From Xanthomonas maliensis (GTDB taxonomy: Bacteria > Pseudomonadota > Gammaproteobacteria > Xanthomonadales > Xanthomonadaceae), in assembly GCF_009192945.1 (NCBI RefSeq), contig NZ_NSET01000036.1, positions 1 through 64,000 on the forward strand: a DNA stretch of 64,000 nucleotides. Reading direction: 5' to 3'. The notes beneath the pieces are model-generated. The model had not been told where the DNA came from, searched no databases, and saw only the letters and a list, made by a program, of their open reading frames with translations. Positions 1,187-11,700 of the stretch are shown here, in pieces. Position numbers and translations under genes: made by a program. Within the stretch, counting starts at the first letter, position 1, and every line of letters starts with the position of its first letter.

Positions 1187-2152
1187 TTGAACGCCTCCTC
1201 ACAAATCAATCACGAGCGTCATCGCGACGCATACTTGGCTTCGAAGCTGCGCAGCCTCCTCACCGGCCCGAACACCTCGTTCCTAATGGAAGCCCATAAC
1301 GGCTTGTCTGCACGCATCGTCGCCGAGGCCGGTTTCGAGGGAATATGGGCCTCGGGCCTATCGATCTCCGCCTCTTTGGGAGTGCGCGACGCCAACGAAG
1401 CGTCCTGGACGCAGACATTGGAAGTGGTCGAGTTCATGACCGACAGCACCGATCTTCCGATCCTGCTCGATGGAGACACCGGCTACGGCAACTTCAACAG
1501 CGTACGTAGGCTTGTCCAGAAGCTCTGCCAACGCAATGTTGCCGGCGTCTGCCTCGAAGACAAGATGTTCCCCAAGACCAACTCCTTCATCGGCGATGAT
1601 CAGGAACTGGCCGACCCCTCCGAGTTCGCGGGCAAGATCAAGGCCGCCAAAGACAGCCAGAGCAACGACGCGTTCTGCGTCGTTGCGCGGGTGGAGGCAC
1701 TGATCGTCGGCCGCGGACTGACCGAAGCGTTAAGCAGAGCCGAGCGATACCACGCCGCTGGAGCCGATGCAATTCTGATCCACTCCAAAAAAAGCGACGG
1801 GGTGGAAATCCTGAAGTTTGCCGAGCATTGGCAAGACCGCTGCCCGCTGGTGATCGTACCGACCACGTACTACGCAGTACCGACTCAGGCCTTCATCGAC
1901 GCAAGAATCGCCAGCATCATCTGGGCAAACCACAACCTGCGCGCGTCCGTCGCCAGCATGCGCAAGATCTGTGCAGCCATCCACCGCGAGCGGTCCCTCA
2001 GTGGCATCGAAAAAGAGCTGCCTCGGGTAAAAGAGATATTCGATCTGGTCGATCAGGACGAACTGACACAGGCCGAAAGCATCTATCTGCCCAAGAAGCA
2101 GCAGGGATCTGCTCTAGCGAGCAACAGCCACGACGCAGAGGCCGCACGATGA
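1187..2152 (+). CDS. pepM: Phosphoenolpyruvate mutase (phosphonate biosynthesis entry enzyme)
   Basis: This 321-residue protein should rearrange phosphoenolpyruvate to phosphonopyruvate, the C-P bond-forming step of nearly all phosphonate pathways. The isocitrate lyase/PEP mutase fold is clear, with DGDTGYGN around residues 94-101. The catalytic-loop motif EDK-x5-NS is exact at residues 124-133 and separates true PEP mutases from methylisocitrate lyases and oxaloacetate hydrolases. The start is a TTG at 1187, preceded by a GGAGTT ribosome binding site at 1175-1180; no in-frame ATG lies near. The stop overlaps the decarboxylase start (ATGA). It is the first gene of a tight eight-gene run. Confidence 0.93.
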   Translation: MNASSQINHERHRDAYLASKLRSLLTGPNTSFLMEAHNGLSARIVAEAGFEGIWASGLSISASLGVRDANEASWTQTLEVVEFMTDSTDLPILLDGDTGYGNFNSVRRLVQKLCQRNVAGVCLEDKMFPKTNSFIGDDQELADPSEFAGKIKAAKDSQSNDAFCVVARVEALIVGRGLTEALSRAERYHAAGADAILIHSKKSDGVEILKFAEHWQDRCPLVIVPTTYYAVPTQAFIDARIASIIWANHNLRASVASMRKICAAIHRERSLSGIEKELPRVKEIFDLVDQDELTQAESIYLPKKQQGSALASNSHDAEAAR

Positions 2153-3366
2153 TCAACGGCAAAGCATTTGTCGCAGCCGCATCGCGGGTGGGCTTCGACT
2201 TCTACACCAGCGTGCCTTGCTCCTATCTGACCCCGCTACTCAATGGGGTCCTGAGCGACCCAAAGGTGCATCACGTCACCGCCGCCAGCGAGGGCGAGGC
2301 CATCGGCATTGCCGCAGGTGCATACCTCGCGGGACGGCTACCTGTGGTGATGTTGCAGAATTCTGGTTTGGGCAACGCGGTCAATCCACTGACCTCGCTC
2401 AACCACGTCTTCAAGATACCCTGCCTGCTGATCTGCAGCTGGCGCGGCTCACCTGGCGTCGCTGACGAACCGCAGCACGCCGTCATGGGCGAGATCACCC
2501 ACAGCCTGCTCGATGTGTTGCGTATTCCACATGCACCGTTCCCGTCCGAACCCGATCAGATCGAGCACACGCTGCGGGCCGCGCACGCCTGCATCCAGCA
2601 AACACGCTTGCCATACGCACTGATTGTCGAACCCAACGTACTCGCAGAGGAGCACCTGCTGGCCCAGGCCGTGATCCGCATGCCAGCAGCGACGCAGTCC
2701 CAGTTTGGACGGCCCCAATCCCCCCTGCCAAGCAGGGAGGACGCGCTGCGCATCACAGCGTCGATGGCGCCCCATCACGCCGCCATTATCGCGACCACCG
2801 GCAAGACCGGGCGAGAGCTCTTCTGTATCGGCGACGATGCACGCAATCTCTACCTGGTCGGGTCGATGGGATGCGCCAGTGCGGTAGGCCTGGGCGCAGC
2901 GCTCAACGCCGATCGTCCCGTCCTGATACTCGATGGCGATGGCGCTGCGCTAATGAAGCTTGGCAACCTCTCCACCATCGGCCGCTATCAACCGACCAGC
3001 TTCGTCCATGTGCTGCTGGACAACGGCGTGCATGACAGCACAGGAGGCCAACCGACCAACTCGGGAAACATTGATTTCCCCAGTATCGCTGCAGCCTGCG
3101 GCTATCGGGCGACCTACGCCTGCCACGGGGAGGCCGCCCTGAGGCAGGCACTGGACATCTCCTTACGCAGTGCCGGACCGCACTTCATCCACGTCCGCAT
3201 ACGGCCCGGCTCCATGCATCCGCTCCCTCGTCCCACTGTTTCGCCAAGCGAAGTGGGCATGCGATTTGCGGCGCACCTGCAGCAGCGAGAGGTCTACAGT
3301 TCCGACGCGATCGGTCGTCGTGCCGCTGCACGTGCCAATACCGCCGAGAGGTCTGCCGCGCTATGA
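2149..3366 (+). CDS. ppd: Phosphonopyruvate decarboxylase
   Basis: This 405-residue thiamine diphosphate enzyme should decarboxylate phosphonopyruvate to phosphonoacetaldehyde, which pulls the unfavourable PEP mutase reaction forward. Evidence is the N-terminal pyrimidine-binding part with EGEAIGIAAGAYLAGR (around residues 45-60), the diphosphate-binding DGDGAALMKLGN segment in the C-terminal half, and the family signature HDSTGGQPT. Length is normal for the family (Fom2, BcpC). The open frame extends further upstream, but the ATG at 2149 overlaps the pepM stop by four bases and matches the family N terminus. The next gene again overlaps by ATGA. Confidence 0.92.
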   Translation: MINGKAFVAAASRVGFDFYTSVPCSYLTPLLNGVLSDPKVHHVTAASEGEAIGIAAGAYLAGRLPVVMLQNSGLGNAVNPLTSLNHVFKIPCLLICSWRGSPGVADEPQHAVMGEITHSLLDVLRIPHAPFPSEPDQIEHTLRAAHACIQQTRLPYALIVEPNVLAEEHLLAQAVIRMPAATQSQFGRPQSPLPSREDALRITASMAPHHAAIIATTGKTGRELFCIGDDARNLYLVGSMGCASAVGLGAALNADRPVLILDGDGAALMKLGNLSTIGRYQPTSFVHVLLDNGVHDSTGGQPTNSGNIDFPSIAAACGYRATYACHGEAALRQALDISLRSAGPHFIHVRIRPGSMHPLPRPTVSPSEVGMRFAAHLQQREVYSSDAIGRRAAARANTAERSAAL

Positions 3367-10975: not shown

Positions 10976-11013
10976 TCGCGCTCACCTCAACGTACACGCT
11001 CCAGGAGCACATC

Positions 11014-11700
11014 ATGACGCAATGGCAATCGGTATTGATCGAACAACAACGCTACTACGACGACCGTGCAGCAGAATACGACGACTGGTGGTTCCGTCGC
11101 GGTCTCTTCGACGAGGGAGATGCGTCCAATGCCAGGTGGCACGAAGAAGCCGCACACGTACAAGACACACTGAATGCCGCTGCACTGGAGGGCGATATCC
11201 TGGAGCTGGCGGCCGGCACTGGGATCTGGAGCGTCCGATTGCTCCCACAGGCACGCACACTGACCCTGGTCGACGGATCGGCACAGATGCTGAAGTTCAA
11301 TCCAGCCACCCGCGATCCGCGGGTGCGTACCGTGCAGGCAGATCTCTTCCAATGGCAGGCCACGCAGACCTACGACGCGGTGGTGTTCGCGTTCTGGATC
11401 TCGCACGTTCCACGCGAGTTGTTGCCGCAGTTCCTGCACCAGGTGGCAGGGGCGCTGCATGTAGGGGGGAAGTTCTTTTTCGTCGACAATCTTCCCAAGC
11501 CCGAAGCACGTTCGCCGCACGTCGTGGGCGTGGAAGGCCAGCTGATGCAGCGCCGCCTGCGTAATGGCAAGGTCAGCACGATCGTCAAGAACTACTACAC
11601 GACCAGCGAACTGCACGCCGCCTGCAGCGCTGCAGGACTGGAGGTGGCCATCGGCCAGACACCGACGTTCTTTCAATACGGGGTCGGAGTACGTCGCTGA
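11014..11700 (+). CDS. Class I SAM-dependent methyltransferase
   Basis: This 228-residue Rossmann-fold methyltransferase has the SAM-binding motif ILELAAGTGIWS at about residues 63-74 and an acidic VDGSAQML segment after the next strand. The N-terminal YYDDRAAEYDDWW is typical of small-molecule methyltransferases of the UbiE/COQ5-like superfamily. The ATG at 11014 follows CAGGAG at 11002-11007. It points the same way as the phosphonate operon but is separated from it by 211 bases containing a dispersed repeat, so it may be transcribed with it or independently. O- or N-methylation of the product is possible but unproven. Confidence 0.8.
   Translation: MTQWQSVLIEQQRYYDDRAAEYDDWWFRRGLFDEGDASNARWHEEAAHVQDTLNAAALEGDILELAAGTGIWSVRLLPQARTLTLVDGSAQMLKFNPATRDPRVRTVQADLFQWQATQTYDAVVFAFWISHVPRELLPQFLHQVAGALHVGGKFFFVDNLPKPEARSPHVVGVEGQLMQRRLRNGKVSTIVKNYYTTSELHAACSAAGLEVAIGQTPTFFQYGVGVRR

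Follow-up and report, generated by a model that had tools for sequence, protein, structure and literature searches.

The route from phosphoenolpyruvate (PEP) to phosphonoacetate, by way of a PEP mutase (pepM), a phosphonopyruvate decarboxylase (ppd) and an aldehyde dehydrogenase, is an established branch point of phosphonate biosynthesis (PMC12723261). It is found in the O-phosphonoacetic-acid-serine (O-PnAS) cluster of Streptomyces sp. NRRL F-525 and in the clusters of Kitasatospora fiedleri, 31A4 and MMG1121. Another known arrangement, the pairing of an AurF-type diiron oxygenase with an AsnB-like enzyme, is represented by TsnB6/7/9 (trichostatin A, benzohydroxamic acid), ActI-ActJ (actinonin) and MatA-MatC (matlystatin). 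Both are found in a single nine-gene cluster of Xanthomonas maliensis, together with a LicC/PntC-like nucleotidyltransferase and an AnkX-like Fic protein. The cluster lies at the beginning of contig NZ_NSET01000036.1 (assembly GCF_009192945.1), the first 64,000 nucleotides of which are referred to as the window, and occupies positions 1187 to 11700 of the + strand. It very probably directs the synthesis of a phosphonoacetate-derived phosphonate.

Since the conversion of PEP to phosphonoacetate has been published, that part of the pathway is not novel, and the same holds for the AsnB/AurF pair; what is new is the tailoring set and the combination. The initial annotation knew of no characterised cluster with this set. 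Among the matches listed from the open-access literature there is indeed none with the same genes, and none that describes a phosphonate pathway in Xanthomonas; the statement has to be narrowed for its parts, as the phosphonoacetate branch, a proposed nucleotidylated phosphonoacetate and the AsnB/AurF pair are already on record. The words 'asparagine' and 'AurF' are absent from the text of PMC12723261, as are 'hydroxam' and 'Xanthomonas' from that of the 2026 review PMC13302981. The locus is a real, conserved phosphonate biosynthesis cluster, with a product prediction that is specific and unproven.

Gene content and the probable route to phosphonoacetate

The genes are listed in Table 1. The initial annotation had described a phosphonate operon of eight named genes, and all eight are present on the + strand (1187 to 10802) with the family matches tabulated; its list left out a ninth gene, a methyltransferase located 211 bp downstream of the first eight. 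The near-complete overlap of the genes was also confirmed: the first eight are joined at seven points, six with an overlap of 1 to 17 bp and one with a gap of 11 bp. The PEP mutase, called diagnostic in the initial annotation, contains EDKMFPKTNS, which corresponds to the EDKx5NS motif, and exceeds the TIGR02320 cut-off. Its TTG start and the preceding GGAG are kept in all seven aligned upstream regions. The PIP box has the form TTCGB-N15-TTCGB; no exact copy of this HrpX-type signal was present upstream of pepM in any of the seven regions, and one relaxed match, on the opposite strand, was seen in the window only. No Rfam family reached its gathering score in the window.

Table 1. Positions of the island genes, of the right flank and of an insertion element in a related island (window coordinates unless a locus is given)
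Feature	Position	Strand	Basis
pepM, phosphoenolpyruvate mutase	1187..2152	+	TTG start, GGAG upstream; TIGR02320 376 bits (cut-off 320)
ppd, phosphonopyruvate decarboxylase	2149..3366	+	TIGR03297 427 bits (cut-off 312)
AurF-type diiron oxygenase, proposed amide N-oxygenase	3363..4316	+	PF11583 83 bits (cut-off 29.6)
LicC/PntC-like nucleotidyltransferase (ntp), proposed CTP:phosphonate cytidylyltransferase	4313..5038	+	PF12804
AsnB-like glutamine-dependent amidotransferase	5050..7068	+	PF00733 274 bits, GATase_7
PhnY-type phosphonoacetaldehyde dehydrogenase	7052..8542	+	TIGR03250 746 bits (cut-off 636)
TauE/SafE-family exporter (predicted)	8539..9381	+	PF01925 136 bits
Fic-like protein, AnkX-like	9381..10802	+	PF02661 22.7 bits, below cut-off 24
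Class I SAM-dependent methyltransferase, ninth island gene	11014..11700	+	PF13649 47 bits
TonB-dependent receptor, right flank outside island	11781..14204	-	name from translation, no family search
DDE-transposase element copies, X. hortorum jj2001	L010:414-1394 and 2464-3444	-	

PepM would convert PEP to phosphonopyruvate, Ppd would decarboxylate the latter to phosphonoacetaldehyde, and PhnY would oxidise this aldehyde to phosphonoacetate. These three predicted steps are well supported, by equivalog models above cut-off and by the best solved relative of PhnY, 4i3t ('aldehyde dehydrogenase (NAD+)', 4e-159), which we take to be the PhnY of S. meliloti. Unlike in the island, Ppd is split into two genes in the NRRL F-525 and Kitasatospora clusters. 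In agreement with the initial annotation, a 2-aminoethylphosphonate (AEP) transaminase is absent from the cluster, and no protein of the whole genome scores above 112.7 bits with the PhnW-AepZ model (cut-off 360.8). The nine proteins gave no match to the homocitrate-synthase-like family, the genome itself not being searched for phosphonomethylmalate synthase or for hydroxyethyl- and hydroxymethylphosphonate (HEP/HMP) enzymes.

A PhnY gene could also belong to a phosphonate catabolism module. The nearest plasmid relatives of PhnY (60 to 62%, in Burkholderia, Paraburkholderia and Variovorax, one annotated phnY) and a Sinorhizobium match at 52% spanning phnY and phnA would fit such a module, which is nevertheless extremely improbable here: pepM and ppd point to biosynthesis, and the phosphonoacetate hydrolase model TIGR02335 reaches at best 21.6 bits in the genome (cut-off 408), so that PhnY does not seem to feed a PhnA route.

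Amidotransferase and diiron oxygenase

The canonical glutaminase residues are retained in the AsnB-like enzyme, which has Cys at position 2 and intact NGE and SGGLDS motifs. It should thus draw ammonia from glutamine and use ATP to activate an acid, for which phosphonoacetate is the only evident candidate in the pathway. Its relatives were found in other phosphonate clusters. Five AsnBs of rhizobial pepM clusters, taken from the top of the best 40 of 166 similarity records, score 551, 543, 389, 380 and 367 bits against the window enzyme, and each is near a LicC-like nucleotidyltransferase. The best of 13 other AsnBs compared reaches 319 bits, below all five (for L088-L092 among the comparison set, loci were read with 1 kb flanks and the distance to pepM was not judged by annotation). 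In a tree, these pepM-cluster AsnBs group together at support 94/96, not starred; as one long-branched Xanthomonas paralogue also falls inside the group, this clade is suggestive rather than proven.

The rhizobial plasmid clusters (such as R. leguminosarum pRLTp73_2, L054, and S. meliloti pSINME02, L086) share with the island pepM, a stand-alone nucleotidyltransferase and an AsnB 34 to 43% identical. No phnY, AurF-type or Fic relative was found in L054-L056, L085 and L086 being judged by annotation alone; an aminotransferase and a CDP-alcohol-type transferase are present instead in L056, L085 and L086. The R. leguminosarum cluster (L054:3284-11944) is unusual in itself, with pepM, ppd, a TauD-family dioxygenase, a LicC-like nucleotidyltransferase, AsnB and further unassigned proteins. 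Those of the two Sinorhizobium plasmids (L085:4949-15828 and L086:7222-15759) encode PepM, a class I/II aminotransferase, a nucleotidyltransferase, a CDP-alcohol phosphatidyltransferase and AsnB, and might make amidated phosphonolipids. Genome G968, which represents another genus of the family, has AsnB and PhnY joined in a single open frame of 1163 amino acids (aa) that contains both domains (L115:11009-14500, - strand); such a fusion fits consecutive steps.

None of the seven diiron ligand positions of AurF (E76, E111, H114, E169, H196, E200 and H203) is lost in the window enzyme. Its best-scoring relatives outside the clusters are Streptomyces proteins (L019, 178 bits; L020, 164; L021, 157), all encoded next to or two genes from asnB. 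They are followed by a Nostoc protein located by a glutamine amidotransferase (127 bits), by L103 (124 bits), a locus where neither asnB nor pepM is nearby, and by SaAmOx of S. angustmyceticus (L023; 122 bits, 35% identity over 243 aa); an AurF fragment itself scores 45 bits. Around nine plasmid relatives, asnB was a neighbour in four cases, a glutamine amidotransferase in one and nonribosomal peptide synthetase (NRPS) genes in two, the two others being unannotated. One of the Streptomyces loci, on a Streptomyces europaeiscabiei plasmid (L020:9755-24921), places asnB and the AurF-type oxygenase by PqqD, radical SAM, formyltransferase and nucleotidyltransferase genes, in a biosynthetic cluster that is unassigned. 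AurF relatives of other Pseudomonadota were considered as sister clusters and set aside, as five loci held no pepM or asnB relative at E 1e-4; these relatives occur in three further genomes of 398, with one weak aldehyde dehydrogenase match, in L103.

We propose that the AsnB-like enzyme would use glutamine nitrogen to turn the carboxylate group of phosphonoacetate, either free or as the CMP ester, into an amide, and that the AurF-type enzyme would then oxidise the amide nitrogen, giving phosphonoacetohydroxamate or a close relative. This step is put forward tentatively, its chances being somewhat below even. There are precedents for two orders of reaction. SaAmOx is a proven amidooxygenase, whose partners in making benzohydroxamic acid are an accessory subunit and a hydroxyamidotransferase of the AsnB type (PMC13418202), and the same cassette makes trichostatin A (PMC13418202; PMC5719088). 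In the actinonin and matlystatin clusters, the AsnB/AurF pair comes without the accessory subunit, and amidation followed by oxidation has been proposed (PMC5719088).

The same final hydroxamate could accordingly arise in the first manner, the diiron enzyme forming glutamyl hydroxamate from glutamine, an order of which benzohydroxamic acid is the proven case and trichostatin A a reported one (PMC13418202; PMC5719088). The likeness of the diiron enzyme to SaAmOx speaks for it, as does the best PDB match of the window AsnB, the hydroxyamidotransferase 7ylz (248 bits, compared to 125 bits for E. coli AsnB). In the wider AsnB comparison, however, the window enzyme is no nearer to the hydroxyamidotransferase SaHAT than ordinary AsnBs are: its 234 bits fall inside the spread of unrelated AsnBs, and the Asn of its NGE motif, found in 22 of 23 rows, is a Ser in SaHAT. 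A hydroxyamidotransferase identity was therefore rejected. Moreover, the accessory subunit SaAmOx-AS has no match in positions 1-14204 of the window or in L011, L013, L016 and L115 (tblastn, best E 0.64). We regard this order as quite unlikely. Because the AsnB is not hydroxyamidotransferase-like and no accessory subunit was found, amidation first fits better, and from that order phosphonoacetohydroxamate or a derivative is the predicted product. The island differs from the TsnB cassette by having no match to a TsnB6-type subunit (also absent in act and mat), by the canonical glutaminase Asn of its AsnB, and by an acid that would be a phosphonate. Its methyltransferase was compared with the one encoded between SaHAT and SaAmOx, and was not retained as a counterpart, only a 15-residue stretch being alike.

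Another explanation is a product that lacks an N-O bond, namely an amide or peptide of phosphonoacetate. AsnB would link phosphonoacetate to ammonia or to an amino compound, and the oxidation by the diiron enzyme would take place elsewhere in the molecule, at an amine or a carbon. An amine is the substrate of AurF itself, two relatives of the diiron enzyme (L093, L094) adjoin NRPS genes, and the Rhizobium pepM-cluster AsnBs occur without a diiron-enzyme relative nearby. Nevertheless, none of the nine genes is assigned by Pfam to an adenylation, NRPS or ATP-grasp family, and the diiron relatives nearest by score are encoded by asnB, which leaves this explanation unlikely.

Nucleotidyltransferase, Fic-like protein and the reading as a whole

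The nucleotidyltransferase resembles the LicC/PntC type over the whole protein. Its best PDB relatives are LicC (1jyk, 7e-12, residues 2-226) and 6pd1 (3e-9, residues 2-223), annotated nucleotidyl transferase/aminotransferase and presumably the PntC of T. denticola. As with the PntC/LicC cytidylyltransferases, a member of this family is here found in a pepM cluster, but one without a recognised AEP transaminase, so that AEP is an unlikely substrate. The enzyme would instead activate the island's own phosphonate with CTP.

Canonical Fic proteins carry a motif of the HxFx(D/E)GNGRxxR type. In the window protein it reads HLFTEANIRT: the His, Phe, Glu, Asn and Arg are kept and neither Gly is, Ala standing in for the first, as it does in AnkX. 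The form HLFxEANIRT is kept in all five complete orthologues aligned. AnkX chains were the only Fic-type PDB relatives (E 0.002 with the single sequence, 6e-4 with a five-sequence profile), and likeness to AnkX extends over about 70 residues around the motif with its Ala-Asn; the differences are that Pfam reports no ankyrin repeat in the island protein, and that the latter is encoded in a metabolite operon. AnkX is a phosphocholine transferase that uses CDP-choline. The nucleotidyltransferase and the Fic protein thus both have phosphocholine-type relatives, which suggests that a donor-maker and a transferase are encoded four genes apart. From these two weak-to-moderate similarities, a phosphocholine-like logic may be at work, in which a CMP-phosphonate is made and its phosphonyl group is handed to a hydroxyl. 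The acceptor of this transfer by the Fic protein would be a hydroxyl on a carrier or on a small molecule; the transfer could mask the toxic group, and we consider it possible, if rather doubtful. The methyltransferase would finish the product, and the TauE/SafE protein would export it.

Proteins with some likeness to the Fic protein were encountered elsewhere. A hypothetical protein of the Pantoea agglomerans pv. gypsophilae plasmid pPATHpag (L018:12392-13858) matches it at 25% over 288 aa, with no relative of the other eight island genes in the 26.8 kb of that locus. In genome G1022, two proteins have a C-terminal likeness to the motif region (34 to 36%; L116:9090-9734 and L117:9333-10130), the second of which begins, as judged by eye, with a transposase-like stretch. 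A role in defence was also considered for the Fic, AurF-like and nucleotidyltransferase proteins, none of which matched a PADLOC model at E 0.01.

Two other fates for an activated phosphonate were weighed. In the first, the nucleotidyltransferase and the Fic protein would esterify a serine-type hydroxyl to give a compound like O-PnAS, AsnB and the diiron enzyme doing no more than decorating the partner. Nucleotidylated phosphonoacetate has been proposed for O-PnAS (PMC12288639), and the aldehyde dehydrogenase branch is common to both (PMC12723261); such a product is distinctly improbable. In the second, the CTP-activated phosphonate would be attached to a lipid or glycan, in the manner of the pnt/lic pathways. 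The larger part of the phosphonate capacity of bacteria is reported to be devoted to the cell surface, and over two-thirds of phosphonate clusters include a nucleotidyltransferase (PMC6697681); the similarity to LicC points the same way. Yet no LicD-like, glycosyl- or CDP-alcohol transferase was found among the nine genes (Pfam), an exporter gene is present, and the substrate would be phosphonoacetate rather than AEP. With no transaminase above cut-off either, the AEP and surface-tailoring readings were set aside, the latter being very unlikely.

As a whole, the island is best explained as a natural-product locus whose phosphonate would be derived from phosphonoacetate, N-oxidised, activated with CTP, transferred by the Fic protein and exported; our confidence in this complete reading comes close to even, from below. 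A more specific version, which appears rather unlikely, is a dedicated phosphonoacetohydroxamate pathway in a plant-associated bacterium, in which the phosphonoacetate branch would be coupled to a diiron chemistry that oxidises amides. An AnkX-like Fic protein, recruited to metabolite synthesis from protein modification, would take the phosphonyl group from a CMP donor and so mask or conjugate the warhead. To our knowledge, phosphonoacetohydroxamate is so far known only as a synthetic enolase inhibitor. Its earlier synthesis yielded a potent compound, and SF-2312, a related cyclic compound, is a natural enolase inhibitor (PMC12288639).

Several observations weigh against the complete reading, besides the distance from SaHAT, the NGE Asn and the unmatched subunit described above. 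The AurF tree does not settle the place of the window enzyme. The Fic similarity is weak and C-terminal only, fic is the fastest-evolving gene of the island, and it is broken in two of the seven lineages; from these last two points, fic may be dispensable. The CTP preference of the nucleotidyltransferase is inferred from its relatives. Finally, the genome contains one enolase gene, and duplication of enolase as self-protection was thus rejected.

Island boundaries, distribution and decay

The cluster is a discrete chromosomal island. In genome G022, which carries another copy (L013), it is about 11.6 kb long, and the TonB receptor and an AcoR-like regulator (flank names read from translations) are 11,630 bp apart; in 20 cluster-free genomes with both on one contig, they are separated by 82 to 939 bp. 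In all 20, homology to G022 ends at 2274 to 2284 and at 13912 to 13922 (coordinates of the reversed L013), so that both end points agree within 10 bp; the left end is at 2274 or 2276 in 19 and the right end at 13912 in 19. Between them, the 20 genomes have no other match to the island. The right-hand end point is 80 bp beyond the methyltransferase gene, which places this gene inside the island and the TonB receptor outside; the receptor has a match in 27 of the 35 genus genomes, most of which lack pepM. The island has a G+C content of 62.7%, compared to 65.7 to 68.4% in 84 overlapping stretches of the same length from the rest of the 64 kb. No transposase or integrase was found among the nine genes (Pfam).

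With the window's own genome included, pepM is present in 6 of 35 genomes of the genus and in 7 of 395 drawn from the family (E 1e-60). A search for the gene set in other genomes had been suggested; the set was mapped in all seven pepM carriers of the family draw. These include X. dyei, X. vasicola, X. hortorum and X. axonopodis, as well as G968, which has the same TonB-side flank. Two maps were joined from contigs: that of G015 with an X. dyei contig, by identical end sequence, and that of G033 with X. vasicola, by inference, as both contigs break off inside ntp, in insertion elements of one family. The methyltransferase is 85 to 89% conserved in the six other lineages. In a class-wide draw, 27 of 369 genomes had pepM-like matches at E 1e-40. 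Among the 26 neighbourhoods other than that of the window, a ppd relative was found in 23 and a nucleotidyltransferase relative in 22; relatives of phnY, asnB, aurF, tauE, fic and the methyltransferase were found in none at E 1e-6, an absence that is weak for the five contigs of only 3 to 9 kb.

The operon genes are under purifying selection, as estimated from orthologues matching end to end (split or partial copies were left out; the X. vasicola-type aurF of L012 has a longer frame than the other copies). Compared with the window, pepM has a dN/dS of 0.045 to 0.065 and fic one of 0.22 to 0.28; the nucleotidyltransferase is at about 0.20, and the values of ppd, aurF, asnB, phnY, tauE and the methyltransferase fall between 0.06 and 0.15. 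The initial annotation had suggested that the product could serve as a toxin or antibiotic, which is a possible function. Broken genes are nevertheless present in four or more of the seven island copies. In X. hortorum jj2001, pepM and ppd are broken by two copies of one DDE-transposase element (Table 1), and an element of that family, with 80% identity at each of the two contig ends, breaks ntp in X. vasicola. The fic gene is broken by stops and frame changes in X. axonopodis, and has lost its middle in G968. Two contigs of X. dyei end within phnY, which may reflect an insertion or an assembly break. The copies of the window and of G022 look intact. The loss of fic in two lineages while its neighbours persist points to a possible late role of the Fic protein, such as masking or conjugation.

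These results provide a checkable product class for a Xanthomonas phosphonate cluster. The predicted N-oxidised phosphonate could poison sugar metabolism; if the hydroxamate reading is true, nature makes a classic enolase inhibitor, and if the Fic reading is true, Fic enzymes also work in natural-product synthesis. As the island has been broken repeatedly in relatives, whether it benefits or burdens its carriers is a question that comparative work can address directly.

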